A DNA stretch of 64,000 nt from NCBI GenBank assembly GCA_017503805.1, contig JAFVSJ010000004.1:32664-96663 (forward strand). Reading direction: 5' to 3'. How positions within the stretch are numbered: the first letter of the stretch is position 1; the number at the start of each line of letters is the position of its first letter. The notes beneath the pieces were generated by a model, which saw nothing but the letters and a program-made list of their open reading frames with translations, was not told the DNA's origin and searched no databases. This DNA is from Tidjanibacter sp. (GTDB taxonomy: Bacteria > Bacteroidota > Bacteroidia > Bacteroidales > Rikenellaceae). This document shows, in pieces, positions 1-13,734 of this stretch. Both the position numbers and the translations under genes were made by a program.

Positions 1-1395
1 ACTTAATTTTCCCCACATAGCTGACAATTCGACGTCTTTAGGGAGTGGATACTTCCACGTAGGATATGTTGCAAACAGCCGAGTCAAAACACTATCAGGC
101 CCTTGAGTAGTTTGCATTGTCGCTCTATCATACATAAATTTCAATGATATGTTGCTGTATTGATTTTGAGGATTGGGCCAATGTTTTATTGTAACCTCTT
201 TATCTGTTTCTTTGCAAATCTCTCGATTCTCGTCATCTACCCAACCTAGAGATTGGAGTAATTCGCCTGAGACATATTCCCACTCTCCATCGACAATAGG
301 ATTGCCCACGCACATACGTGTGTATACTTTATTTTTTAATACCCCGTTGCTCGTATATTTAGCCAATGACTTTCCGCTCGGATCATCATCTATTCCATAT
401 CCGCCACCGATATCAGAGTGGCAGCCTGGAATAAACAATTCTATGCTATTTGCAGGTAATGATTCTCCAAAATCGGTAATTGCGAAGTTAGCCCTAAACT
501 CATCTAATGCACATATATGGCACGAGCTCTTCACATTATCCAACGATTGGGAGTACAACCCATAGTTCCGAGCATTATCTCGATGAAAATTACTCCACAT
601 CTCGGTTCGAGAAAGTAAGGGTGTTTCTCTCCAACTTGCATCACCTTCTTGCTCATTTAGAAAACCCATAGCTGAAACAGTATCATACACACCCAAAAAA
701 TCTACCGTTACACTATTGACCCTCTGCTTGATTTCATCCAAAAAAGAGACGCGACCATTAGTAAATAAATTGCCGGCTAAATAATTGTTAAATTCGTGTT
801 CTCGAGGTAGTACCTGCCCTTCTTCTCTGGCAATTAGATAGGATAATAATCTGGCACAAGTGGCACCGCGACTAAAACCAAAAACATAGAAATGGATATT
901 TCGTATCTTCGATAAGCCTCTATGTATTTCAATGGAGATCTGATTGTATATGTATTGTACTGCTTTGCTAACCTTGGCGACAACACCGGATGAACCGAGT
1001 CCAAAGCCCAAACCAATCACCGGTTTACCATTTACCACGAAATCTGCCACCGAATTTTCTGCCATAAAACCTTCTCTACCCACACCCTCAATATACAGCG
1101 TAACCACCTTATCATTACTATTGTGGCTCAAAGGTCTAAATAGTTTGGCAAGAATTGCAGGATTAGAAATATTACCCTTCCTATTCCAGTCTATAGTATT
1201 GTTTAGGGCCCTATTCTCTTCATTGCGACCTAAAATATCTACTCGACCTTGTAAATGCAACCAATCTGTCCACTTTCCGTTATTGGCATTATTATTGGTA
1301 CCATCAAAGAACACCCCTATATGTATATCGCGCTCGCAGAGAGCACTTTCTGCCCTTTCCTCGTATTCGGCGTTATTTGCACCAACAATCTCCAT
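1..1395 (-). CDS. Tle1-type (DUF2235) T6SS phospholipase effector, partial at left edge
   Basis: Open for 465 codons on the minus strand from an ATG at 1395 to the window edge, so the C-terminus is missing. An in-frame TAG lies six codons upstream of the ATG. The family is the DUF2235 alpha/beta hydrolase of T6SS lipase effectors (Tle1). Visible hallmarks are FFDGTNNN (residues 29-36), nucleophile elbow GFSRGA (Ser175), GVYDTV (Asp238) and GCHSDIGGGY (His326), which together give a complete Ser-Asp-His triad. It starts 29 bases after the PAAR-like gene, directly behind vgrG, the classic place for a cargo effector. It probably attacks phospholipids of rival cells; substrate and toxicity are inferred from family. 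No immunity gene is visible, and one would be expected further left. Confidence 0.85.
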   Translation of the reverse strand, partial: MEIVGANNAEYEERAESALCERDIHIGVFFDGTNNNANNGKWTDWLHLQGRVDILGRNEENRALNNTIDWNRKGNISNPAILAKLFRPLSHNSNDKVVTLYIEGVGREGFMAENSVADFVVNGKPVIGLGFGLGSSGVVAKVSKAVQYIYNQISIEIHRGLSKIRNIHFYVFGFSRGATCARLLSYLIAREEGQVLPREHEFNNYLAGNLFTNGRVSFLDEIKQRVNSVTVDFLGVYDTVSAMGFLNEQEGDASWRETPLLSRTEMWSNFHRDNARNYGLYSQSLDNVKSSCHICALDEFRANFAITDFGESLPANSIELFIPGCHSDIGGGYGIDDDPSGKSLAKYTSNGVLKNKVYTRMCVGNPIVDGEWEYVSGELLQSLGWVDDENREICKETDKEVTIKHWPNPQNQYSNISLKFMYDRATMQTTQGPDSVLTRLFATYPTWKYPLPKDVELSAMWGKLS

Positions 1396-1424
1396 AACAA
1401 TAATTATCAACTATCAGCCCTAAT

Positions 1425-1856
1425 TTACATCTGCTTGAATTGTGAACTCGGTTCCCTACTCATATCAGGGCTACCGGTATTTCTCTGTCCGTCAGACTCA
1501 ATGGTGATTATTCCACCCCAAGCACATCTGCAAATTGACGACCTCAATAGAGCCGGCTGGTTTTCAATGAGATAATCATTCTTACCACCTTGCCATTTAC
1601 TCATAGTATTTGGGATGCAGGGTTGGGGCGTCAAACGACCTTTATTAGCAATAGTCGCCGCCTTGGTCGGTGGAAAACCAAGTGTGTGACACTTACCAAA
1701 AGGGGGTATATTCACCTTAGATATGTGGTCACTAATATTTGCTGCAGGTTCTTCGGTCAGTTTAACTGTTCTGGAAGGAAGGACCTTGAGTTTTGAAGGT
1801 TGATCCCCAAAGCAACACCTCAACACAGCATTAGAAGTCACATAAGAATCTGCCAT
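1425..1856 (-). CDS. DUF4280 PAAR-like T6SS spike-tip protein
   Basis: 143 aa. The pattern fits DUF4280/PAAR-like proteins: an N-terminal LRCCFGDQ motif, spaced Cys/His/Pro residues through the middle (ISKVNIPPFGKCHTLG, QPCIPNT) and a C-terminal SSICRCAWGGIITIESDG repeat, a Cys- and Gly-rich beta structure suited to cap the VgrG trimer. It lies 4 bases downstream of vgrG and 29 bases upstream of the Tle1-like gene, so it is likely the adaptor that sharpens the spike and carries the lipase. There is no C-terminal toxin extension. Family assignment is by motif recall, not a search. Confidence 0.8.
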   Translation of the reverse strand: MADSYVTSNAVLRCCFGDQPSKLKVLPSRTVKLTEEPAANISDHISKVNIPPFGKCHTLGFPPTKAATIANKGRLTPQPCIPNTMSKWQGGKNDYLIENQPALLRSSICRCAWGGIITIESDGQRNTGSPDMSREPSSQFKQM

Positions 1857-1860
1857 AGTT

Positions 1861-3873
1861 CTAATTGACTTTCACTGTAGATGACTTTATTTCTATCTTA
1901 GAACCAGCATTGATATTCATCGAATTTTCTGCCTTTTGCTGATGTACATTAGAATAGAGAAGCATTTTGTCCGAAGCCTCTTCCCTAATATTTTCTGCCG
2001 TCACCTGTAATTTGTGGGCAATCTGTTCATCCTTGTTATTGTTAACCTTCACAAAACTATTTGACTCGACTGTCAAATAATCATTGTTCTTTATCGTTGA
2101 TGACCTATCATTACCCACTACCTCAACTATGTCATTTGATGCTGTTCTGTGCATGTCATTATCGGCATTCATAAAATAATCCTTGCTGGCACTTGCATCA
2201 ATATTATTCCCTGCACGCATAATAATATCATTTTTTGCGTGTAGTTCAATGTTGCCTGTAGACTCCAATTTGATGAGTTTTTCATCTGTAGAGAAAGTCA
2301 AGATGTAGTTTTCCTTCAGATTATCATAGATTCGGATATAACCATCTTCTCCCTCATCGTGTATCTCAATTGTATGACCATTTCGAGTCCTAATGGCTTT
2401 TATCTTATTGTGCCCATTGTTATTTGCGAGCCACGCTCCGTCCGGATTGCCAACTCCATTGTATAATGTACCCTTGACGTATGGGCGTTCCGCATTACCT
2501 CCTTCGAAGTCAATCATAACCTCTTCTCCCACTTCGGGAATGAAGCTAAACCCTTTGCCCCCTCCAGCGTATGGTTGTGACATTCTTATCCAAGGAGTTA
2601 TCATATTGTCGTCAAGCATTGCCTGCCAATCGAATTGAACCCTTACTCGACCTAAGTCATTTGGATCTTCATTATCAACAACCTTGGCACGGCACGAAGG
2701 CGCGACAGGATATACATCAGTATTGAAATATGGAGGATAATCGCAGCCTATGGGTAACCCCTTGAATACATTACTATAAACCTTATCTTTAGAAAAATAA
2801 TGCAATAGTTCGGTTATAAGTATTTCATCTTGTACCACAGGACTTTTTTTATGACTGCTATGGTCTATATAGTTGTCCTCAATAATCAAAACTCCTCCAA
2901 TCTTGATTTTTGAGCAATATGTTTCACCTGAATATGTAAGCATAGAGGCTTTCTCTCCTCTGGCTTGGGTTTTGGTAGAGATAGCCAAAATCTGCTCTCG
3001 ACCATCTTCATCTGCATAACCTCCCGAATGAAGATTCTGCAAAGTATTCTTAATATAATTGTCTTGAGATGCATTAAAAACGCACTCACTCAAGTCATTA
3101 TATTTTCGTTGCATTTCCTCCAATCCCTCTTTCTGATTTGCAGAATAGGAGTTGTAAGAACTTGCTATATGATTAAATGCAACGTGCTGCATTTTCATAT
3201 CGATATTGTAAACCGGAATATCCTGACTCGGATACATTAATTTGACCGATTGTCCAACGGGCAATTTGCCAAAAACAAGTTTTTCCCCAGAATGATACAT
3301 CCATTCCCCGTAACGCTGCGCCAATCGACAAAGAAATTGGTAATTCGTTTCGTTGTACTGTACACAATATGGGATTATGGCAGAATAACGAGCATCTGCC
3401 TCTACGTCCAACACACCACTATAATCATCTACGACATCATTGACTATCTCATTAAGAGTAAGCCCCTCAAAAGATTTGCAATTAGGATTATCATTGAGCA
3501 AGGCGTCATAACTTTCAGCCGTCACATTGATATAGTATTGACTATGACTTCTTCTGCCAACAGCCGAAGTGATTACACCGACAAACACGATCTCTTCCAA
3601 TTTATCGGGATCATCGTGAGGAGAAATAATCTCAGTTTGCAATAATACTGTCATCTGTTTGCCAATCACCTGGCCACAGATTGAGAATAACGCCTCACTC
3701 ATAGCCTCCTCGGGTCCTTTATGCATAGTAAACATAAGTGTATTGGGAGAAAGCAGGCGTTGAAATAGAGAAAAATTATCCAAATGCCATACTTCACCAT
3801 CGAGTTCAATATCAAACTCTGATGATTTCACGCCATCGATAGAAATAGAGATATTTTTAATAGATATTGACAT
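1861..3873 (-). CDS. tssI: T6SS spike protein VgrG (TssI)
   Basis: 670 aa. The first 380 residues resemble the gp27-like base of VgrG. Residues about 390-475 form the gp5 OB-fold, seen as CRAKVVDNEDPNDLGRVRVQF followed by PWIRMSQPYAGGGKGFSFIPEVGEEVMIDFEGG. Residues about 480-670 are the repetitive beta-helix needle, rich in Asn/Asp and ending without an extra effector domain. It therefore acts as a plain trimeric spike and depends on the neighbouring PAAR-like protein and effector for cargo. It lies 17 bases downstream of the second hcp gene in the same minus-strand operon. ATG start at 3873. Confidence 0.93.
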   Translation of the reverse strand: MSISIKNISISIDGVKSSEFDIELDGEVWHLDNFSLFQRLLSPNTLMFTMHKGPEEAMSEALFSICGQVIGKQMTVLLQTEIISPHDDPDKLEEIVFVGVITSAVGRRSHSQYYINVTAESYDALLNDNPNCKSFEGLTLNEIVNDVVDDYSGVLDVEADARYSAIIPYCVQYNETNYQFLCRLAQRYGEWMYHSGEKLVFGKLPVGQSVKLMYPSQDIPVYNIDMKMQHVAFNHIASSYNSYSANQKEGLEEMQRKYNDLSECVFNASQDNYIKNTLQNLHSGGYADEDGREQILAISTKTQARGEKASMLTYSGETYCSKIKIGGVLIIEDNYIDHSSHKKSPVVQDEILITELLHYFSKDKVYSNVFKGLPIGCDYPPYFNTDVYPVAPSCRAKVVDNEDPNDLGRVRVQFDWQAMLDDNMITPWIRMSQPYAGGGKGFSFIPEVGEEVMIDFEGGNAERPYVKGTLYNGVGNPDGAWLANNNGHNKIKAIRTRNGHTIEIHDEGEDGYIRIYDNLKENYILTFSTDEKLIKLESTGNIELHAKNDIIMRAGNNIDASASKDYFMNADNDMHRTASNDIVEVVGNDRSSTIKNNDYLTVESNSFVKVNNNKDEQIAHKLQVTAENIREEASDKMLLYSNVHQQKAENSMNINAGSKIEIKSSTVKVN

Positions 3874-3890
3874 ATGGATAAACCGTCATT

Positions 3891-4376
3891 TTAGAACAAA
3901 TCTCCAGCACCTAAACGACCTATTTCGTGCTCAAAACGATTACGCATATCACCCAAAACACCACCCCACTCATTGACCAACATTACACTATCACTGACAC
4001 CAATCCTAAGTACCTCTGCACTAATGGTTATGGTAGTATACATCAACTTTTGGTCGTTGTCATTAAAATAGTCCTTTAACCTTATGCAATAGGCATTTAT
4101 GAATTGAATGGTCTTGAAACTGCGTTTATTATTATGAGAATAAACACAAAAACGAAACAGTCCTGACTTAACCTCGGTTTTATGGATCATCCACTTATAG
4201 AAAAACACATCGTCATCGCTAGTAGCTGGCATCACAAATGTGATCTGGCCTCCCATAGGACGAGATGTAGGTTTTCCGGTATCATCAACCGTTTGAGTGA
4301 ACTCATATTCGCATTCAACCACGCCATATGTCCGATCGGTTCCATCAAGTATTTTCAAATATCCCTGCAGTGCCAT
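3891..4376 (-). CDS. tssD: T6SS tube protein Hcp paralogue (TssD), long form next to vgrG
   Basis: 161 aa. It aligns by eye with the 139-aa TssD upstream: a GYLKILDGTDRTYGVVECEYEFTQ strand, then TGKPTSRPMGGQITF, a central DVFFYKWM segment and a final ITISAEVLRIG strand, the two-sheet Hcp fold of the Bacteroidetes tube family. It has a longer C-terminal tail (about 25 residues, ending RLGAGDLF) than its neighbour. Its place directly before vgrG suggests a specialised Hcp, for example at the tube-spike junction or as an effector carrier. That role is inference. ATG at 4376 follows a 12-base motif AATACCCAAACC also found before the other hcp gene. Confidence 0.85.
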   Translation of the reverse strand: MALQGYLKILDGTDRTYGVVECEYEFTQTVDDTGKPTSRPMGGQITFVMPATSDDDVFFYKWMIHKTEVKSGLFRFCVYSHNNKRSFKTIQFINAYCIRLKDYFNDNDQKLMYTTITISAEVLRIGVSDSVMLVNEWGGVLGDMRNRFEHEIGRLGAGDLF

Positions 4377-4392
4377 TGGTTTGGGTATTAAT

Positions 4393-4418
4393 CGTCAGGA
4401 GGCGGTTGCCTCCTGACG
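4393..4418 (-). terminator. Perfect 11-bp hairpin between the two hcp genes
   Basis: CGTCAGGAGGC (4393-4403) and GCCTCCTGACG (4408-4418) pair perfectly around a 4-base loop. On the minus strand it follows the stop of the 139-aa Hcp gene and is not followed by a U-run, so it is better read as an mRNA 3' stabiliser or partial attenuator than a full terminator. It would let the first hcp accumulate above the downstream vgrG-effector genes, as a tube protein requires. Confidence 0.6.
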
Positions 4419-4430
4419 AATCTGATACAA

Positions 4431-4850
4431 TTAGTTATCTACAGTCCAACGGTTGTTGTGACGAGCATTGCCAATCTGGATTTCCTTGCAGGTAATAGTA
4501 AACTCCTCATACTGGTGAATCTCTCTCTCATCCTGCATCTTAGACGAATCGTAGGTCTCGGAGTACTCAACAACGTAACCTTCCTTGAAAGACAGATGTT
4601 TCATCTCACCGCCCTGACGATTGGGGAACGAAATAGTGCCACTCTTGCTCATATAAGTATCACACATCCACTCCAAAATATCGGTATTACCATCATCGTT
4701 GGATTTAACCTTAAGCTGGATCTTGCCACCACGTGTAGTACCTGTGGGCTGACCCTGAACATCTGTGTGCTGATTGAGTTCGTACCTTACGAATTCAACC
4801 TCACGCTCCTGAATGCCATCGGCATTGATAGTACAAGTTCTTGTAGCCAT
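4431..4850 (-). CDS. tssD: T6SS tube protein Hcp (TssD), main form
   Basis: 139 aa, the usual size for Bacteroidetes TssD. It has the beta strands EREVEFVRYELNQHTD, the turn GQPTGTTRGGKIQLKVKS, a short helix TDILEWMCDTY and the terminal strand YEEFTITCKEIQIGNA. It stacks as hexameric rings to form the inner tube that is fired through the sheath. It lies 38 bases after tssC and is followed by a perfect hairpin, which fits the need for very high Hcp levels. ATG at 4850; no signal peptide, as expected of a cytoplasmic tube subunit. Confidence 0.9.
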   Translation of the reverse strand: MATRTCTINADGIQEREVEFVRYELNQHTDVQGQPTGTTRGGKIQLKVKSNDDGNTDILEWMCDTYMSKSGTISFPNRQGGEMKHLSFKEGYVVEYSETYDSSKMQDEREIHQYEEFTITCKEIQIGNARHNNRWTVDN

Positions 4851-4888
4851 AATAATTGAATTTATTAATTAATAATAGGTTTGGGTAT

Positions 4889-6262
4889 TTATTGCACCTT
4901 CTGATCCCAATCCACACCAGCTGTACCATTATGACCGGTCAACTCGATTAGGAAGTTTTTAGCTGCAAAGAAAGGTTTCATCTCAACTTGTATGCTGATA
5001 TCTTTCGTCTTGGGATCCTGATTTATTCCTTTGAGACTATAATTCTCGATAAGCTTGCCGGGGCCTTTGTAATCACTCAAGAAGTCGTGAATGGCCTGCT
5101 GCAACTCGGCCTTGACTTGCGGATTCCAATTGATAAAAGCTTCGTCGTTGAAGAAATTTTGGAACACCTTTCCAATCCAGTCAAAAACTCTAACGATAGG
5201 ATACTCCTGCAAACCCATTGTTGCACCATTATACAAAGACCTATTGGAGAAGGCCATAGTTCGACCATCCTCTTCAACCATAGGTATTACACCTTGATCA
5301 ATGAGTGAGGCAATCTCCGATTTCCTCAAATCCATTCGAGCTCCTTTGACATTTGACAATGTGCCATATTTTTTGCCCGCAGCACCCTGAGCGATAACAA
5401 CCTCATCTGTATTGGACATCCTACCGGCAAGCGCCGCCGATGCAGGAATAAACAAGTCCTCATCTTCGCCTGCAATGTCGGATTTCTTTCTGCCTACCAA
5501 ATAATTGCAAGTCATAATCATATTGGACAGGTATGCCTCTTGACCCTGAAGACTTGCGTCATCCAACTCATCCTTGAGCATTTCAAAGTTCATACTATCC
5601 TTAAAGTCTGTAATCATAAGGACCTTATTCTTATATGCGGTTTGAGCCCACATTCTAACGGCCTCCCCATCGCCTAAATATCCGGGGACAACCAACATAC
5701 TATAGTTGTTCTTCAAGCTCAAGCGATCGTAGTATTGCTCCAACTCATCTCTAACTGCCAAAGTGTCCTCAGAATCATTGTCGGTCAACTCCTCTTTATT
5801 GACATTCATCAATGTAATACAATCCACCTTGCCTTGACTCGCATTGGCAAAGAAAGAGTCAAGTGCACGATATGTAACCTCAAGATTCATTATCTCACTA
5901 TGTATATTGAAGAGGTTGTTCTTGAGATTCTGTTCAGCTTTATTACACTCTTGTTTACAAATATCGATGATTTCCATAGGATCAACACCTCCCTGCTCGA
6001 GAATATTCACCCACAAAGCGATCTCGTTTTTCAGCTTTTTCCTTGCTTCTGCATAAGCCGAATCCGACAAAAAAATATTCTTCACCGCTTTTTTTCGGGG
6101 ATCCATATTCTCTACACCCTTTACAAGACCTTTGAGAAGTTGAAATCCTCCATATTTATCAAGTCCACCGATACTGTTCTGGAGCAGTTCGGCAGGGTTA
6201 TCTATTCTTTCTCTCAACTCCAGCGACTCTACACTTGCGAGTTTTTTTTCTTCTGCTGCCAT
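4889..6262 (-). CDS. tssC: T6SS contractile sheath large subunit TssC
   Basis: 457 aa, normal length for TssC (VipB). Recognisable stretches are SIGGLDKYGGFQLLKGLVKGVE near the N-terminus, a conserved core LVVPGYLGDGEAVRMWAQTAYKNK, and the C-terminal QVEMKPFFAAKNFLIELTGH that joins the sheath fold. With TssB it builds the sheath whose contraction drives the Hcp tube outward, and ClpV later recycles it. It lies 34 bases after tssB in the operon. ATG at 6262. Confidence 0.92.
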   Translation of the reverse strand: MAAEEKKLASVESLELRERIDNPAELLQNSIGGLDKYGGFQLLKGLVKGVENMDPRKKAVKNIFLSDSAYAEARKKLKNEIALWVNILEQGGVDPMEIIDICKQECNKAEQNLKNNLFNIHSEIMNLEVTYRALDSFFANASQGKVDCITLMNVNKEELTDNDSEDTLAVRDELEQYYDRLSLKNNYSMLVVPGYLGDGEAVRMWAQTAYKNKVLMITDFKDSMNFEMLKDELDDASLQGQEAYLSNMIMTCNYLVGRKKSDIAGEDEDLFIPASAALAGRMSNTDEVVIAQGAAGKKYGTLSNVKGARMDLRKSEIASLIDQGVIPMVEEDGRTMAFSNRSLYNGATMGLQEYPIVRVFDWIGKVFQNFFNDEAFINWNPQVKAELQQAIHDFLSDYKGPGKLIENYSLKGINQDPKTKDISIQVEMKPFFAAKNFLIELTGHNGTAGVDWDQKVQ

Positions 6263-6296
6263 ATTTGTATTGAATTATAATTTCATTTGAAAAAGT

Positions 6297-6752
6297 CTAC
6301 TCGGCATCCTCTAACTCTGCCAATAACGCTTTCAATGCATTTTTGAGATTTTCTTTAGAAGATTCATCTTTGAGCGTATTCCTCAATGTTTTGTTCTTCT
6401 CCAACTGACGCACAACCGAATTATATGCCTCAATTTTAGCTTTTTTACCACTCAAGAAATCGCTTTGGGCAATCAATTGCTCATCTTCGAAATCCTTAAT
6501 TTGCTTAAACTCGAAATTCTCATACAATACACCACCGTTTTCAGATTCAAGAGCGACACCCTCCTTCGTAGGCTGATAATGTTCAAACACCTCTTTCATA
6601 CTTTTGGGCCTGAATCCCTGGCGGGCTTCATCCGTATTGGGTGCAACGTCAGTAAATTGGTCTGCATAAAGAGTCCTATTCTGAGGGAACTCAATAATGC
6701 CATCTTGCGCATTTGCATCCAAGACTTTTGTAATAACTGTCTTCCTTGCCAT
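6297..6752 (-). CDS. tssB: T6SS contractile sheath small subunit TssB
   Basis: 151 aa from the internal ATG at 6752 (MARKTVITKVLDANAQDG). A further in-frame ATG at 6824 overlaps the tssH stop as ATGA and would add 24 residues (MSFWQRLFG...) that do not look conserved. The A+T-rich stretch before 6752 (ATAATAGACAAAGTATG) reads like a leader, so I prefer the shorter form but cannot exclude translational coupling. Middle residues include FRPKSMKEVFEHYQ. The C-terminal half is charged and helical (RQLEKNKTLRNTLKDESSKENLKNALKALLAELE). The partner is TssC; order tssH-tssB-tssC is conserved in this class. Confidence 0.85.
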   Translation of the reverse strand: MARKTVITKVLDANAQDGIIEFPQNRTLYADQFTDVAPNTDEARQGFRPKSMKEVFEHYQPTKEGVALESENGGVLYENFEFKQIKDFEDEQLIAQSDFLSGKKAKIEAYNSVVRQLEKNKTLRNTLKDESSKENLKNALKALLAELEDAE

Positions 6753-6820
6753 ACTTTGTCTATTATGTGTTAATGTAATGTTGTCTCTATGGAAATGACC
6801 AAACAATCTTTGCCAAAAAC

Positions 6821-9079
6821 TCATTTAGTACACTCTTCGCTATCGGTTATTTCCCAAATGATCTCTTTGGTTTCGGAATTATATTTCATCAAGACTTTGG
6901 AGTTAGGTACTATATCGCCGGAAATAATCATTTTTGACAATGGTCGACGAATCTCCTTGCGAATGATACCCAATATGGGACGAGCGCCATAATGTGAATT
7001 GAATCCGGTGCTCGTCACATATTTACGAGCAGATTCGTCAATCTCCAGGATAATTTTCTGTTCGTGAAGTGTCTTAAGCAGATTCTTAATATGGATGTCG
7101 AAAATTCTATCTATCATCTCCGTAGTAATTGGAGAGAAAGGCACAATCTCGGTTAGACGGGCAAGGAACTCGGGTCTAAACTGTCCTTGCATCACCTCTA
7201 ACATTTGATCGTGAGTTGGTATATGACCTTGTCCAAATGAATTGAAAATAAAATCACTGCCAATGTTAGAGGTAAATATAATTAGGGCGTTCGAGAAGTC
7301 GCCAATACGTCCCAACCTATCGTGAAGTTTTCCTTCATCAAGAATCTGAAGGAAAAGATCAAATACGGACTTATGAGCCTTTTCTATCTCATCAAACAGT
7401 ACCACGGAGTATGGATTTTGCCTGATTTGGTTTACCAGCAAACCTCCTTCTTCATATCCGACATATCCCGGAGGGGCTCCATAAAGCAATGCCACAGAAT
7501 GTTCCTCTTTGTATTCCGACATATCGAACCTCAATATATTTGATTCGTCATTAAATAGGAACTCTGCCAACGACTTAGCCAGCTCTGTTTTACCGGTACC
7601 TGTAGGACCTAAGAAAAAGAATGAGCCAATGGGTTGTCCCTTTTTATTCAATCCAGAGCGCGATTCAAATACCGCATCAAGTATACTTTTCACTGCGTGT
7701 TCCTGACCAACTACCCTCTTGTGCAAAATAGCTTCAGCGTTGGACAATCTTTCCCTCTCTGCAGCCTGAATGTTGCCCATAGGTATTCCTGTCATCTTGG
7801 ACACTACTTTTCTTACAATGTCTACATTAAGTTGGGCAACTTCATTCTCACCATTTTGTGTCGATTCAATATCAACCTTCATAGCTGCCATAGACCTATC
7901 GAGCAAATCCAACGCAGATGATGGCAAACGTTTGTCAGACATATAGCGCTTTGCCAAACGTACTATTTCTGCCGGCACATCATCATCCAACTCAATTTTA
8001 TGGAATTGCTCATAGGTATCCTTACGGCTTTTCAATACCTCCTCGGTCATTTCGACAGATGGTTCCTCCACCGTCACCTTCTCAAATAACGAAAGCAACT
8101 CTTTGTCTTTTTCGATGTCTTTGGTATATCCATCAAGAGTAGTCGTACAGATAACTTGCAAGTCATTTTTAGTCAATGCCCGTCTCAAAATAGGCAATAC
8201 ACCATAAAGCAACGACTGTTTATCTAACAGATTGTGAAAATTTTCGATGACAAGAATCGGATGAACTTGATTTGCCAGACGATTAATCACATCCTTAAAT
8301 CTATCCTCAATTTCACCCTTATAAGTCACTCCCTGGCACAATGCAATAGTATCCAGCTCATAGGGTTTGACATCCAACAGAAATGAAGGCACAGACTGAC
8401 TTCTTATCATTTGCAAGAGCCCAACTACAAGACTGGTTTTACCCACTCCTGTTTCTCCAACTATGATTACATTTGCTCTGTCTTTCCTCGCTAAAATCTC
8501 TATTAAAGAGCGTATTTCCGAATCGAAACCAACCACCGACAAATCTGGCAAAGATTGCAACATATCCACACACAACATATCACTATCGGACGTGCTAATA
8601 TTTATCATCGATTTAGAGGTCTGCTTCGTGTTCGCATTATTAATACTTCCCTCGTTTGTAATTATTTTATCCGGAGTGAGAGGCATAGTTTTCAACTGTT
8701 CATAAGAAAAAGCCAACCCTGGAGTCAGCAATGCGGCCAAAAGCGAATACTCATCAAGACTATCTAAACCTTTTGCCTTAGCAATGCTGCCTGCCTCTTT
8801 CACGACTTTCTGGGTATCTGCGGATAATACAATTCCCTTCATTTTATATGGGGATTTTTCACATTGCTGCATCCTCATATCTGCCCAATCTACTAAATAG
8901 TAGTAGTCCGCATCCAATGTATCCTCCAGGTAATTAACCAGGCCGGCACTTTTGTGTAACAGAGCCCTTAGGATATGTGCCGGTTCAATCGTAGGACTAC
9001 TGTTATCCGTTGCAAAAGATTGAGCAATATGCAACAAATCAAAATGAAGTGCGCTCAAAGAATCTACATATTTATCCAT
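6821..9079 (-). CDS. tssH: T6SS sheath-disassembly AAA+ ATPase ClpV (TssH)
   Basis: 752 aa, a tandem AAA+ unfoldase of the ClpA/ClpB class. A Clp-N repeat domain covers residues 1-140. NBD1 has Walker A GETGVGKT (208-215). NBD2 has Walker A GPTGTGKT (491-498), Walker B VVLFDEIEKAH (559-569) and the pore loop GAPPGYVGYEEGG. It extracts contracted TssB/TssC sheath for reuse. The NBD1 Walker B reads ILVIENFHNL where the family normally has IDE, so site 1 may bind ATP without hydrolysing it efficiently. It follows upxY by 9 bases and is the first structural T6SS gene of the operon. Confidence 0.92.
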   Translation of the reverse strand: MDKYVDSLSALHFDLLHIAQSFATDNSSPTIEPAHILRALLHKSAGLVNYLEDTLDADYYYLVDWADMRMQQCEKSPYKMKGIVLSADTQKVVKEAGSIAKAKGLDSLDEYSLLAALLTPGLAFSYEQLKTMPLTPDKIITNEGSINNANTKQTSKSMINISTSDSDMLCVDMLQSLPDLSVVGFDSEIRSLIEILARKDRANVIIVGETGVGKTSLVVGLLQMIRSQSVPSFLLDVKPYELDTIALCQGVTYKGEIEDRFKDVINRLANQVHPILVIENFHNLLDKQSLLYGVLPILRRALTKNDLQVICTTTLDGYTKDIEKDKELLSLFEKVTVEEPSVEMTEEVLKSRKDTYEQFHKIELDDDVPAEIVRLAKRYMSDKRLPSSALDLLDRSMAAMKVDIESTQNGENEVAQLNVDIVRKVVSKMTGIPMGNIQAAERERLSNAEAILHKRVVGQEHAVKSILDAVFESRSGLNKKGQPIGSFFFLGPTGTGKTELAKSLAEFLFNDESNILRFDMSEYKEEHSVALLYGAPPGYVGYEEGGLLVNQIRQNPYSVVLFDEIEKAHKSVFDLFLQILDEGKLHDRLGRIGDFSNALIIFTSNIGSDFIFNSFGQGHIPTHDQMLEVMQGQFRPEFLARLTEIVPFSPITTEMIDRIFDIHIKNLLKTLHEQKIILEIDESARKYVTSTGFNSHYGARPILGIIRKEIRRPLSKMIISGDIVPNSKVLMKYNSETKEIIWEITDSEECTK

Positions 9080-9088
9080 AGTAAATTT

Positions 9089-9691
9089 TTATACAGTTTC
9101 TAATACTCGTTCAACATCATTCAGCGATACACTGACACAAGCATATCCCAAACATTCCACCCTTACAGCAACTCGGGGATAATCAGATTTATCCGTAAGT
9201 AAGTTCCCTTCTAAACCAACCAATGGACCAGATTTTATGCGTACCTTACACTCGACATTTGGCAATAACTCGCTAATCTCTATTGGATTATTGGGAGCAT
9301 TCGTCATTAATTTCAGATTGTCTATTTGAGTGTCGGGAATTATGGCGGGCTGACGGGATCCGGGATATGAAACAAATTTCTTGACGTTTGGCAATGTTAG
9401 CAACTCGGCATCCTCACACAAGTCTGTCCTCACAAAAACAATCATTGGAATTACGACACGATGTATAGTCTTCTTCCTATCGCTCCAGGAGCGCACCTCT
9501 GACTGAATCGGCAAAAAATGTTCAATGGATTTTTTGTTTAGTAGTTGACAAACTTTTTTTTCTGTACACGTTCTCACCAAAATCGCTTTCCAAGATTTAG
9601 GGTGCGCTTCGCGGTCGGTTGTCACACCAACAACCGATATTGCTTCCTCATTTTTCCCAATGGCATCAGTAGCCTCCTCAAAAGTTTTCAC
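9089..9691 (-). CDS. UpxY-family NusG-like transcription antiterminator
   Basis: 200 aa. An NGN domain spans about residues 33-125 (SWKAILVRTCTEKKVCQLL... HRVVIPMIVFVRTD... NVKKFVSYPG), followed by a KOW-type beta barrel (about 145-195: VKIR-like CKVRIKSGPLVGLEGNLL). UpxY proteins of Bacteroides are first genes of capsule operons, where they keep RNA polymerase going through long transcripts. Here the gene is first in a T6SS operon, 9 bases before tssH. No ATG is available after the upstream TAG, so GTG at 9691 is taken as start; a GTG 22 codons further in is an alternative. It lies just inside the invertible promoter region and probably acts on its own operon (inference). Confidence 0.82.
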   Translation of the reverse strand: MKTFEEATDAIGKNEEAISVVGVTTDREAHPKSWKAILVRTCTEKKVCQLLNKKSIEHFLPIQSEVRSWSDRKKTIHRVVIPMIVFVRTDLCEDAELLTLPNVKKFVSYPGSRQPAIIPDTQIDNLKLMTNAPNNPIEISELLPNVECKVRIKSGPLVGLEGNLLTDKSDYPRVAVRVECLGYACVSVSLNDVERVLETV

Positions 9692-9730
9692 AATTTTGGA
9701 AATTGTTGCTCTTGCGAACTAAACTCTGCA

Positions 9731-9754
9731 TATCTCTTTCGTAGAGATAGACTC
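9731..9754. repeat. Left inverted repeat of invertible segment (IRL)
   Basis: 24 bases that recur in perfect inverted orientation at 9895-9918. Key part TATCTCTTTCGTAGAGATAG. Internally palindromic (TATCTCT-TTCGT-AGAGATA), as expected for a site bound symmetrically by a recombinase. It lies 40 bases before the antiterminator start codon, so in the ON state it would be transcribed as a hairpin in the operon leader. Confidence 0.9.
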
Positions 9755-9894
9755 CATATTAATCTGCTGCTAAAACCTTTATTTCCTATTGATTGTTAAT
9801 CATTTCAAAAGGTCTAATTTTGATTATTTTTTTGTGTGTTTTTTTGAAAGTTGCTTATGGTTATTTAGGATTATTTTTTTACATTTGTGCCGTA
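9755..9894. promoter_or_regulatory. 140-bp invertible promoter segment, predicted OFF orientation
   Basis: Very A+T-rich spacer between the two inverted repeats. The plus strand carries TATG (9856-9859), 20 bases, then TACATTTG (9880-9887), matching the Bacteroidetes -33/-7 pattern (TTTG ... TAnnTTTG). Transcription would start at about the right repeat and run rightward into the antisense strand of the recombinase gene. No TAnnTTTG occurs on the minus strand of the segment. Inversion would point this promoter left into upxY-tssH and the whole T6SS operon. Orientation effect is inferred from the motif. Confidence 0.8.
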
Positions 9895-9923
9895 GAGTCT
9901 ATCTCTACGAAAGAGATAGACTC
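9895..9923. repeat. Right inverted repeat of invertible segment (IRR)
   Basis: Positions 9895-9918 are the exact reverse complement of 9731-9754. This copy extends to a 29-base perfect palindrome with 12-base arms (GAGTCTATCTCT and AGAGATAGACTC) around ACGAA. It lies 19 bases past the stop codon of the recombinase gene. Confidence 0.9.
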
Positions 9924-9942
9924 TAAATATCCCTAAACTAAA

Positions 9943-11106
9943 TCACTTCAACATATTGATTATATGGCTATTGACTCTATCCACACGAGTAGAGTCGATG
10001 GCTGCAAGATATATTTGAGTTGTAGTTTCGGAACTATGCCCCATACCTTCACTAATAACTGCTAATGGAACATTTGATTTCTTGGCGATGCTTGCCCAGG
10101 AATGTCTTGCTACATACATCGTTAGAGGGATATCTAAACCAATCATTCGACCAATAATTTTTAAATTCCTATTCACACTGCAGAGGCAATTTATATATTG
10201 TTTTCGCTCATTCTTGTTGTCATTTTTAATTATGGGCAACAGATAGTATTTTGAGTTATTTCTATACTTATCAACTATCTTTTGCATACATGATTCCCAC
10301 TTCACAGATAAACGGTTCCCGGTTTTTCTTCTATAGTAAACTAATTCTCCTTTAGACACTGCATCATTACGAAGATAAGCCATATCTACAAATGACATCC
10401 CTCGTGTGTAGAAGGAGAACAAAAACATATCTCTTGCAAAATCCAAACCCTGCCTATTATTAAGATTAATCTGTTTTATCTTTTTGATGCACTCCAAGGA
10501 TACTGCTCTTTTTTTTGTTTTATCCACACCAACATACACATACTTGAATGGAGACTTATTGTCTATTCCCAACTCCACTACTGCTCGATTATAGACAGCT
10601 CTCAATATCCTCATATAGAAAGAACTGCTATTCCTAATTACTCTTTTATCTCTGAGATATATTTCATAAGCAATCATCACATTAGGCACTATTTGTTCTA
10701 ATTCAATATCAACACCCTGTCTAAATCTACAGAAACTATTCAGAGTAGAAGTGTAGGCCTCTGCTGTCCTTATTTTCCCAAGAGACTTCATTCGATTTAT
10801 AATTATTCTCATATATACGAACAAAGTCATTCTTGATGCTTCACCTCTAACTTCGCTTGCTGAAGCCAGAGGTTTCAATTCAGTGCCTTTTGCTTTTTTA
10901 TCCGACATAGTTTTTCTCACACTGCATTTTTGACTACCTAAATCCAAAAGCATCTGACGTAAATAGGTTGTAATTGTCTCATTAGATATTACTTTACCTA
11001 AAGTTTGCACCGTGAGCAAATCCTCTTGGAACAATTCTACATTATTTCTGATTGAGTCTGCTTGCTTACACGCAACCATTTTGCGTTCTCCTCTGTAATT
11101 GGCCAT
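9943..11106 (-). CDS. Tyrosine site-specific recombinase, probable invertase of the T6SS promoter
   Basis: 387 aa. The N-terminal 110 residues are unlike most integrases. A SAM-like core-binding domain (about 90-190: RMKSLGKIRTAEAYTSTLNSF) is followed by the catalytic domain. Catalytic landmarks are box I TRGMSFVDMAYLR, a Lys in YYRRKTGNRLS, box II YVARHSWAS (Arg kept, the His three residues before it is Tyr), and GHSSETTTQIYLA with the nucleophilic Tyr. The stop codon is 19 bases from the right inverted repeat, the usual layout of Bacteroidetes Tsr-type promoter invertases. It could instead be the integrase that inserted the A+T-rich island; adjacency to the repeats favours invertase. ATG at 11106. 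Confidence 0.85.
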   Translation of the reverse strand: MANYRGERKMVACKQADSIRNNVELFQEDLLTVQTLGKVISNETITTYLRQMLLDLGSQKCSVRKTMSDKKAKGTELKPLASASEVRGEASRMTLFVYMRIIINRMKSLGKIRTAEAYTSTLNSFCRFRQGVDIELEQIVPNVMIAYEIYLRDKRVIRNSSSFYMRILRAVYNRAVVELGIDNKSPFKYVYVGVDKTKKRAVSLECIKKIKQINLNNRQGLDFARDMFLFSFYTRGMSFVDMAYLRNDAVSKGELVYYRRKTGNRLSVKWESCMQKIVDKYRNNSKYYLLPIIKNDNKNERKQYINCLCSVNRNLKIIGRMIGLDIPLTMYVARHSWASIAKKSNVPLAVISEGMGHSSETTTQIYLAAIDSTRVDRVNSHIINMLK

Positions 11107-11277
11107 AAATTTTACTATTAATATTTGACATACGTATATTATATTAAATATATAATGTATGGTTTACACACAAGAAACTCATATACGCACAACTATTTTT
11201 TAGTAAATTTTACAAGAAAAACAAGCTGCATAATTAAGAGGTTAAAACAAGAGAATAGGGCAAAATCGGAAGTGAGA

Positions 11278-11309
11278 TTTTAGATTCTCATATTATTTTC
11301 GTATCTTCG
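11278..11309 (+). promoter_or_regulatory. Predicted promoter of GH3 gene
   Basis: TTTT (11278-11281), 20 bases, then TATCTTCG (11302-11309), close to the Bacteroidetes TTTG ... TAnnTTTG consensus. A leader of about 90 bases follows. The remaining intergenic stretch from 11107 is A+T-rich with no gene visible; base composition shifts to G+C-rich around 11,300. Confidence 0.5.
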
Positions 11310-11403
11310 TGAGGTTGAATGGCCTTGCAGTCATTCGACCAGCCGACCAAAGCTACAAGCGCAGACTTCTAATCACGAACTTACTTATTAACTTTTTACC
11401 CAT

Positions 11404-13734
11404 ATGAAAACTATCAAACTCATCGCAACCATCTGTGCAGCAGCACTCTTGGCAGCTTGTGGCAGCAGCCGCACAGCTATCCCCAAAGACAACGACGTGG
11501 AAAAACAAGTCGAAAAAATCCTCAGCCAGATGACCCTTGAACAGAAAGTTGGTCAGATGGCCGAAATCGCTATCGACCTGCTCGGCAAACTCGAAGCTGA
11601 CCCAAATGGTAACCGACAGTTCAATCTCAACGAGGAGAATCTCGAGAACATTATGTCCAAATACAAGGTGGGCTCCGTGCTCAACGCACCCGGCAGAGCT
11701 CTCCCCGCCGAGCAGTGGAATCCGCTCATTGAGAAGATCAACGAAGCCTCCATACGCCACACCGGCATCGCTACCCTCTACGGCATCGATGCCATCCACG
11801 GCACCACCTACACTGCCGGCGCTTCGCTCTTCCCACAGGAGGTCAATGCCGCCGCCTCATTCAACAGGGCACTCACCCGCCGTATGGCCGAGATGACCGC
11901 CTACGAGGTGAGAGCCAGCAACATCCCCTGGACCTACTCCCCCACCCTCGATTTGGGCCGTCGTCACGCTTGGCCCCGTTGCTGGGAGTCGTTCAGTGAG
12001 GATGCCTATCTGACGGCAGAGTTGGGCCGAGAAATGGTCCTCGGCTATCAGGGTGCCGACCCCAACCATATCGACACAAAGCACATTGCCGCTTGTCCCA
12101 AACACTTCCTCGCCTACGGTATGACCAACTCGGGCCAGGACCGCACCCCCGCCTACGTATCCATCGCAGAGCTGAAGGAGAAACACTTTGCACCCTTCAA
12201 AGCGGCCGTTGAGGCAGGCGCACTCTCGTTGATGGTCAACTCCGCATCGGTAAACGGCATACCTACCCACGCCGACCACGAGTTGCTGACCGGTTGGCTC
12301 AAAGAGGGACTCGGTTGGGACGGCGTAGTCGTTTCCGATTGGGCCGACGTACCCAACCTCTACCAGAGGGAGAGGGTAAGCAAGGACTTCAAACACGCCA
12401 TTGCCGACGCTGTGAATGCGGGTATGGATATGGCAATGATTCCCTACGACCTTCGTTTCTGCGAGTTGCTGCTTGAGGCTGTAGATGAGGGCCTTGTGAG
12501 CCGCGAACGCATCGACGATGCTGCCCGCAGGATTGTCCGTATGAAAGTTCGTTTGGGTCTTGACACCACCCCCAACACCTACGTCAAAGATTACCCCGAG
12601 TTCCAGGGTGAGGCCATCCGCGAGGCTTGCTATGAGTCTGCCTGCGAGTCCATCACTCTGTTGAAGAACAACAACAATATCCTCCCCCTCAGCCGCGATG
12701 CCAAGATTTTGGTTGCCGGCCCCAACGCCGATAGGATGCGTCCTTTGTGCGGTGGATGGAGCTTCTCGTGGCAGGGAGATATTGTAGACGAGATGCTGCC
12801 AGACGGAGTGACCATTCTCGATGCAGTGAAGGCCATTGGTGGCAGGAATGTGAAATATGTTGCCGGCGTAGAGTATAAGCAGGGTGGCAGCTACGAGGAG
12901 GAGTGCAACATCAACATCGAGGCTGCTGTGAGGGCCGCACGCGGTGTGGACTACATCGTGCTCTGCCTCGGTGAGAACTCCTACTGCGAGACCCCCGGCA
13001 ATCTGAAGGAGATGGCCATCTCGCCCAACCAACAGGCCTTGGCAAAGGCTCTGGCTGCAACGGGCAAACCTGTGATTCTGGTACTCAACGAGGGCCGCGG
13101 TCGCATCATCCGCAGCTTCGTAGATGATATGGATGCCGTATTGCACACCTACTTGCCCGGTACGGAGGGTGGTCGAGCACTCGCATCTATCCTCTATGGC
13201 GATGTGAACCCCTCGGGTAAACTCCCCTACTCCTATCCCAAGTACTCCAATGCTATGACCACCTACGACCACAAGGTTTCGGAGAGTGTAGGCACAATGC
13301 AGGGTGCCTATGACTACAACGCTGTTGTGGCTATGCAGTGGGCATTTGGCTACGGCCTCTCCTACACCACCTTTGAGTACAGCAACCTGAAGGTCGTAGA
13401 GGGTGGCGAGTTCAAGGCCGGCGACAAGATTAAGATTTCGGTGGATGTGACCAACACAGGCAAACGAGCAGGTAAGGAGAGTGTGTTGCTCTTCGTGAAT
13501 GACGATGTTGCCTCCATCGTTCCCGATGGCCGCCGTCTGCGCGACTTCGACAAGGTGGAGTTGCAGCCCGGTGAGACCAAGACCGTATGCTTTGAGCTTG
13601 CGGCCGAGGAGTTGGCTTTTGCGAAGAACGATGCTTGCTGGTATCTCGAGGAGGGTAGCTACACCGTTCAGTGTGGCCAGCTGACCGAGAAACTCCAATG
13701 CTTGGAGGATGCCGAGCTGGGTGAGTTCATCTAA
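11404..13734 (+). CDS. Glycoside hydrolase family 3 lipoprotein (beta-glucosidase-like)
   Basis: 776 aa. A lipoprotein signal (LIATICAAALLAAC) places the enzyme on a membrane surface. The GH3 N-terminal barrel shows YGIDAIHGTTYTAGASLFPQ and KHFLAYG; the nucleophile Asp312 sits in VVVSDWADV. The second GH3 domain (ITLLKNNNNILPLS ... VLNEGRGRI ... YLPGTEGGRALASILYGDVNPSGKLPYSYP) and a C-terminal fibronectin-III-like domain (VDVTNTGKRAGKESVLLFV) complete a standard BglX-like layout. It likely removes terminal beta-glucosyl or related sugars from oligosaccharides. No SusC/SusD genes lie beside it, so the glycan cannot be guessed. It is the first backbone gene after the T6SS island. Confidence 0.93.
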   Translation: MKTIKLIATICAAALLAACGSSRTAIPKDNDVEKQVEKILSQMTLEQKVGQMAEIAIDLLGKLEADPNGNRQFNLNEENLENIMSKYKVGSVLNAPGRALPAEQWNPLIEKINEASIRHTGIATLYGIDAIHGTTYTAGASLFPQEVNAAASFNRALTRRMAEMTAYEVRASNIPWTYSPTLDLGRRHAWPRCWESFSEDAYLTAELGREMVLGYQGADPNHIDTKHIAACPKHFLAYGMTNSGQDRTPAYVSIAELKEKHFAPFKAAVEAGALSLMVNSASVNGIPTHADHELLTGWLKEGLGWDGVVVSDWADVPNLYQRERVSKDFKHAIADAVNAGMDMAMIPYDLRFCELLLEAVDEGLVSRERIDDAARRIVRMKVRLGLDTTPNTYVKDYPEFQGEAIREACYESACESITLLKNNNNILPLSRDAKILVAGPNADRMRPLCGGWSFSWQGDIVDEMLPDGVTILDAVKAIGGRNVKYVAGVEYKQGGSYEEECNINIEAAVRAARGVDYIVLCLGENSYCETPGNLKEMAISPNQQALAKALAATGKPVILVLNEGRGRIIRSFVDDMDAVLHTYLPGTEGGRALASILYGDVNPSGKLPYSYPKYSNAMTTYDHKVSESVGTMQGAYDYNAVVAMQWAFGYGLSYTTFEYSNLKVVEGGEFKAGDKIKISVDVTNTGKRAGKESVLLFVNDDVASIVPDGRRLRDFDKVELQPGETKTVCFELAAEELAFAKNDACWYLEEGSYTVQCGQLTEKLQCLEDAELGEFI

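Follow-up and report, generated by a model that had tools for sequence, protein, structure and literature searches.

A predicted capsule-type promoter-inversion switch at the head of a type VI secretion operon in a Tidjanibacter genome

Why does a type VI secretion system (T6SS) operon begin with DNA laid out like the invertible promoter of a capsule locus? The question is raised by a 64,000-nucleotide stretch of Tidjanibacter sp. (Rikenellaceae; GenBank assembly GCA_017503805.1, contig JAFVSJ010000004.1, positions 32,664 to 96,663), referred to below as the window. In the window, a short segment between inverted repeats separates a tyrosine recombinase gene from a T6SS operon that starts with upxY, the gene of an antiterminator. 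Judging from the DNA and from related loci, a capsule-type promoter-inversion switch very probably controls this operon, captured here in the OFF state. The elements of the putative switch are as follows.

9731-9754: operon-side inverted repeat, holding the site TCTCTTTCGTAGAGA at 9733-9747
9755-9894: segment that presumably inverts, 140 bp, 75% A+T
9815-9822, + strand: promoter-like TAATTTTG, directed away from the operon and preceded by TTG at 19 bp
9880-9887, + strand: promoter-like TACATTTG, likewise directed away, at 31 bp from the outer edge
9895-9918: recombinase-side inverted repeat, holding the site TCTCTACGAAAGAGA at 9902-9916

The two arms are exact reverse complements of 24 bp each at a spacing of 140 bp, and the segment between them is A+T-rich compared with the whole window (49% A+T), both as described in an earlier note on this DNA. 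Across the 64 kb scanned, this pair is the sole inverted repeat of at least 15 bp at 30–1000 bp spacing. In 1000 first-order Markov simulations of 9000-12000 (spacing 50–700), the longest inverted repeat was 14 bp.

The Bacteroidales-type promoter consensus is TAnnTTTG/TTG, and we take the TAnnTTTG matches of the segment to be promoters. Both matches are on the + strand and directed away from the operon. The earlier note was right that TACATTTG points right, away from the operon, but mistook it for the only match; TAATTTTG, which also points right, is closer to the consensus, and TACATTTG has no TTG 16–24 bp upstream. Because 0.43 matches (both strands) are expected by chance in such a segment, the promoter call rests on the conserved position in relatives described below, not on the match alone. 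A consensus promoter region inside such inversions is mentioned in the available part of PMC12632263. Inversion might instead only modulate an operon whose genes own further promoters missed by the consensus, in which case 'OFF' would not be off. Our scans covered the TAnnTTTG-type consensus, and other promoter types would escape them. However, TAnnTTTG is absent from both strands of 9001-9730, leaving no consensus match between the repeat and tssH, and the full TTG-N18-21-TAnnTTTG is absent from the operon strand of 1-9691, the T6SS part within the window. Mere modulation is thus unlikely.

Relatives were collected by a TssC scan with one genome per species, which gave 58 loci with 64–88% TssC identity, most of them titled as metagenome-assembled genomes (MAGs) of rumen and gut Bacteroidales. 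Fifty-two of them were usable (tssH plus at least 800 bp upstream), and six were omitted for short upstream DNA or no tssH. A gene of the NusG/UpxY family lies directly before tssH in 43 of the 52 loci. Just before this gene, six of the 43 (L052, L076, L085, L088, L090, and L093) have inverted repeats built on a CTCT-N5/6-AGAG core, and repeats with this core (at least 14 bp long, 60–400 bp apart) occur nowhere else in the 58 T6SS loci. L140 is a further T6SS case, from a UpxY-based search of additional genomes. In total, eight T6SS loci, the window and seven relatives, have the device at the same place.

In all eight loci the arms are perfect, 17–28 bp long, and share a TCTCT-N5-AGAGA-type site. 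The core of the site is distinct in each locus (window, TTCGT; L052, AAGTA; L076, ATGGT; L085, TAGGTA; L088, ATCTG; L090, GCGTT; L093, AAACA; L140, ACGTT), yet the two arms of a locus are identical in 8/8 loci. L090 and L140, sisters in both trees described below, differ by one core base, and this base is changed in both arms. Matched arms of this kind are needed by a working inversion site and not by a hairpin or an idle relic. The palindrome within each arm (in the right arm, found as a repeat pair) would suit a hairpin, attenuator or protein-binding site rather than a recombination site. Such an element, however, needs neither asymmetric cores that are inversely repeated exactly in 8/8 loci nor a promoter at either edge together with an adjacent recombinase gene in 6/8, and is very improbable.

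The promoter-like sequence has a conserved position. In 8/8 loci, a TAnnTTTG ends 29–34 bp short of an outer edge of the segment. This edge-proximal match lies on the operon side and faces the operon in L052, and lies on the far side and faces away in the other seven, among them L088, from the isolate Barnesiella sp. An22. A second away-facing TAnnTTTG is present in L085 and in the window. The recombinase gene ends beside the repeats in six loci (window, L076, L085, L088, L090, and L140).

The relatives without repeats start differently. Of the 37 repeat-free loci in which a NusG gene adjoins tssH, 30 show an operon-facing TAnnTTTG within 350 bp (seven of the 30 carry an away-facing one as well), seven have no match, and none has an away-facing TAnnTTTG alone. 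With 30/37 loci facing the operon, this T6SS normally has a fixed promoter toward the operon, and the inversion loci depart from that rule. In the Fisher test of the 30 fixed against the eight inverton loci, the seven match-less loci were excluded and loci with both directions were counted as facing the operon. The unit that heads the eight loci (one toward, seven away), set against these fixed operon-facing promoters, supports the earlier proposal of a phase-variable T6SS captured OFF, so far as comparison of loci can suggest it. A candidate restriction of UpxY to six of the collected loci, seen with the window protein as query (>60 bits), was overturned when a query with the L052 protein found the NusG-family gene in 43/52 loci; this T6SS therefore normally has an antiterminator, and what sets the inversion loci apart is the cassette alone. 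In L044, one of the nearest T6SSs by TssC (85% identity), two or three other genes lie between tssH and a UpxY of this type, and inverted repeats are absent (L044:4535-7167). Its operon may have a related start from which the switch was lost, or which never had one.

The same module is also found before upxY genes outside T6SS loci. A UpxY-profile search of 393 genomes of the order gave matches in 100, and none of the 29 loci examined besides the window has tssH within 1500 bp of UpxY. The G296, G294, G298, and G295 family searches, taken to the best 20–30 matches each (the G298 and G295 samples largely overlap), added one T6SS case, L140. Control switches were listed when repeats of at least 13 bp with a CTCT/TTCT/GTCT-type site lay within 200 bp of UpxY. 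Among 76 UpxY loci, 21 non-T6SS rows have the module, with seven promoters toward, 11 away and three rows lacking an edge-proximal promoter; L147 is counted twice in these rows, L161 and L167 belong to a single genome, a few genomes are doubly represented, and L113 is not in the list. The control promoters lie 27–32 bp from the edge (43 bp in one). Polysaccharide genes follow UpxY in three of the five loci with informative matches, specifically polysaccharide-export and Wzz genes in L148 and L153 and a polysaccharide flippase-type gene in L114; L113 and L154 continue with other genes. The downstream genes of L142 and L147 gave no family match. Genome G295 carries two switches, the T6SS one of L085 facing away and L170 facing its operon. 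The non-T6SS UpxY locus L147 has two overlapping inverted pairs that share one arm (L147:1098-1443), possibly a switch with more than two states.

Several observations weigh against an active switch of this kind. The edge-proximal TAnnTTTG has a TTG 18–20 bp upstream in only 4/8 loci (L052, L090, L093, and L140), and L090 has two extra operon-facing TAnnTTTG further inside. The sole operon-facing case, L052, has a NusG protein only 22% identical to that of the window and lies at a contig edge, so that any adjacent recombinase gene would be beyond it. The flipped orientation, whose absence from reads and related genomes the earlier note named as a refutation, is present across species, in L052, but the two orientations were not seen within one species. 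Finally, 7/8 loci in the OFF orientation (two-sided binomial p 0.07), including the Barnesiella isolate, could mean a rarely flipping switch, that is, a real inverton effectively locked OFF in most carriers as a silencing relic, with the T6SS seldom expressed. Opposed to this are the perfectly matched arms despite differing cores, the L090/L140 change in both arms, the operon-facing L052, and an OFF share not significantly different from that of non-T6SS switches (11/18, p 0.36; 6/10 in a smaller comparison, p 0.31). Locking is therefore quite unlikely, and an OFF excess special to T6SS loci is not indicated by these comparisons.

A side question is which recombinase would invert the segment. 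The switch could work with a recombinase encoded elsewhere while the adjacent gene acts on other sites, given that L093 has the repeats with no recombinase match >60 bits in 6.3 kb upstream, a further point against the proposed switch, and that one global invertase flips the B. fragilis capsule promoters according to the available part of PMC12632263. Because a recombinase is adjacent in 6/8 loci, and recombinases of the same subclade also accompany this site type in congeners and upstream of capsule genes, this arrangement is rather doubtful.

We infer inversion in living cells, the adjacent recombinase as the invertase, and an effect on T6SS transcription. In the proposed capsule-type switch, the adjacent tyrosine recombinase, or a relative in trans, would recombine the two TCTCT-N5-AGAGA sites and invert the 140-bp segment. 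In the ON orientation, the Bacteroidales-type promoter would read into upxY, and UpxY, by analogy with capsule loci, would antiterminate the ~25-kb upxY-tssH...tssK operon, letting RNA polymerase read through. In the orientation of the window, the promoter would read away and the T6SS would be OFF. The genes on both sides are as follows.

9943-11106, − strand: tyrosine recombinase, presumed invertase (Phage_integrase 29.2 bits, cut-off 27.1)
9089-9691, − strand: upxY, UpxY-family antiterminator, first operon gene, GTG start (NF033644 123.9 bits, cut-off 100)
6821-9079, − strand: tssH, ClpV-like AAA ATPase, 466 bits against an NCBIfam TssH cut-off of 885
6297-6824, − strand: tssB, by position and conservation only
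4889-6262, − strand: tssC, by family model
4431-4850, − strand: tssD (Hcp), by family model
3891-4376, − strand: tssD (Hcp), by family model
1861-3873, − strand: vgrG, by family model
1425-1856, − strand: PAAR-like protein (DUF4280), by family model
1-1410, − strand: Tle1-type lipase gene, cut by the window start, its full length lying on the contig

The recombinase stop is 24 bases from the repeat end at 9918; the 19 bases given earlier are counted from 9923. In an alignment of 28 relatives, R235, K261, Y331, R334, H357, and Y366 are kept in 26–28 rows, and we assign the conserved R/K/R/H/Y residues to the catalytic set. On the other side, upxY is 39 bp from the left repeat and 9 bp from tssH. 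The gene order proposed before holds for upxY, tssC, the two tssD, vgrG, the PAAR-like gene and the Tle1 gene, while tssB, without a convincing Pfam or NCBIfam match, stands by position only and tssH is below its cut-off. The locus thus resembles a capsule-type switch in that perfect inverted repeats flank a promoter and the operon begins with an upxY above the model cut-off, but the operon holds T6SS instead of polysaccharide genes. The window switch would work like a capsule switch on a different target.

The operon goes on for ~15 kb along the contig outside the window (L005 125-17073; a window coordinate is the L005 coordinate minus 15663), with the Tle1-type lipase gene followed by a gene for a DUF2931 protein and a block encoding TssK-like and gp25-like proteins. 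The TssC, TssD, and VgrG models are above cut-off and indicate a Bacteroidetes-type T6SS; TssK (22.3 of 23.4 bits) and gp25 (TssE; 16.4 of 27.2 bits) are, like TssH, below it. The T6SS block has about 40% G+C, compared with 54–55% in the flanking DNA further out on both sides, and at E 1e-20 TssC is found in 8/268 genomes of the family, namely the source genome, a 59% complete MAG, and seven of other genera (40–43% identity). Because of the low G+C and the sparse TssC, the block looks like an acquired island. No TssC relatives were found in IMG/VR. A set of cas9-like, cas1, and cas2 genes, likewise of low G+C, adjoins the island on the same contig (L004:11379-16113).

Just outside the window, the T6SS operon carries genes for an apparently complete set of ubiquitin-like conjugation proteins (L005:4535-14335). 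A 108-residue protein ends in PIAG in the window's operon and in 27/29 relatives (L070 is four residues longer, and L044 is without the motif). Its L088 relative has a predicted ubiquitin fold (pLDDT 83), for which Foldseek retrieves ubiquitin-like domains from E 3.6e-5 and Caldiarchaeum ubiquitin at 5.4e-4. An E2-like protein is above the UQ_con cut-off, with HPN and the Cys invariant in 13 rows. The set also includes a ThiF/E1-like protein, one that carries a JAMM-type motif (Pfam JAB 15 of 22.5 bits), and one whose RING-like and FHA-like regions score below cut-off. The ubiquitin-fold and E2-like proteins are conserved at 56–87% in relatives, about like TssC, which suggests that they probably serve the apparatus or its control and are not cargo. 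In the open-access literature searched, no paper on a T6SS with a ubiquitin-like conjugation system was found.

How did the cassette come to the head of these operons? A tree of 80 UpxY-type proteins requires four label changes to accommodate the eight from T6SS invertons; well-supported branches force at least three, and no bootstrap tree has one. L090, L140, L076, and L088 form one group, and L085 and L093 lie inside a 17-row group with polysaccharide-linked loci. The window protein is on a long branch with an unsure place near L044, and L052 falls within the NusG clade of the T6SS lineage itself. The six recombinases do not form a clade by themselves but share an 11-row subclade (96/96) with L153 and three congeners of the window. 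The label changes may be gains or losses. In the simplest reading, the cassette [recombinase - promoter between repeats - upxY] would have been captured repeatedly at the head of this T6SS, and in L052 the repeats would have been placed around the T6SS lineage's own start. The window's repeat pattern (up to three mismatches) is absent from 22 congeners. Two congeners have TCTCT..AGAGA-type inverted repeats beside related recombinases (L007:2558-2788 and L010:1911-2140), and the stretches around those repeats have no UpxY or tssH match.

T6SSs are costly weapons. We tentatively suggest that one gut and rumen Bacteroidales T6SS lineage with a ubiquitin-like system has several times swapped its fixed promoter for an inversion cassette, and that it bet-hedges with a small armed minority. 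Given the common site type and related recombinases of capsule and T6SS switches, weapon and coat may share switching machinery in some cells. With a heritable, reversible, all-or-none switch, T6SS antagonism would be confined to a minority and could escape notice in metagenomes and pure cultures, and silent T6SS loci could be explained. The capsule phase-switch cassette would be a portable regulatory module, for which the fixed-promoter relatives of the same T6SS offer a natural comparison, and the armed fraction of a gut population could be measured simply, by polymerase chain reaction across the two repeats.

TssC, TssD, VgrG, and the TssK-like and TssH-like proteins of Bacteroidales type are shared, as a likeness of proteins, between the window's operon and the GA1-GA3 T6SSs (PMC4714493); the words invert, upxY, NusG, ubiquitin, and ThiF are absent from the available text of that paper. 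The earlier note knew of no described T6SS under control of this kind. Indeed, no work devoted to a phase-variable T6SS with an invertible promoter was found in the open-access literature searched (subscription papers and preprints lie outside it), and a T6SS switch is absent from the available parts of PMC4714493, PMC8102008, PMC11892184, and PMC8987985. One passage, however, in PMC8748976 comes close, as described below.

Among known switches, the B. fragilis-type capsule promoters likewise have a promoter between inverted repeats, upxY first and a long operon, as far as the available part of PMC12632263 describes them. There, one global invertase serves seven loci, whereas in the window the recombinase gene is adjacent and the target is a T6SS. 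The same text lists surface proteins, exopolysaccharide, restriction systems and SusCD 'among others', with no T6S term. The polysaccharide-linked loci L114, L148, and L153 have the same site type and promoter position as the T6SS switches, and the same recombinase subclade is seen in L153 only. In gut communities, UpxY is enriched among the regulatable genes next to invertons (PMC11892184); the part of that work available here links such UpxY-inverton groups to exopolysaccharide, and the words 'secretion system' and 'T6SS' do not occur in it.

A close parallel is provided by the IP-ARG classes of PMC8748976, likewise a capsule-derived switch with upxY captured by other cargo. According to its available text, resistance genes captured capsule switches at least three times on conjugative elements, and one sentence names T6SS operons among the genes of variable regions lying downstream of class IP-ARG-3 invertible promoters on such elements. 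The principle of switch capture and one clause on a T6SS near an invertible promoter are thus already in print there. That text concerns resistance genes and has no analysis of a T6SS switch. For a T6SS switch with fixed and inverted relatives, the open-access literature searched yielded no description. In contrast to the IP-ARG arrangement, the unit of the window lies directly before upxY-tssH, and non-inverting relatives carry a fixed promoter at that place.
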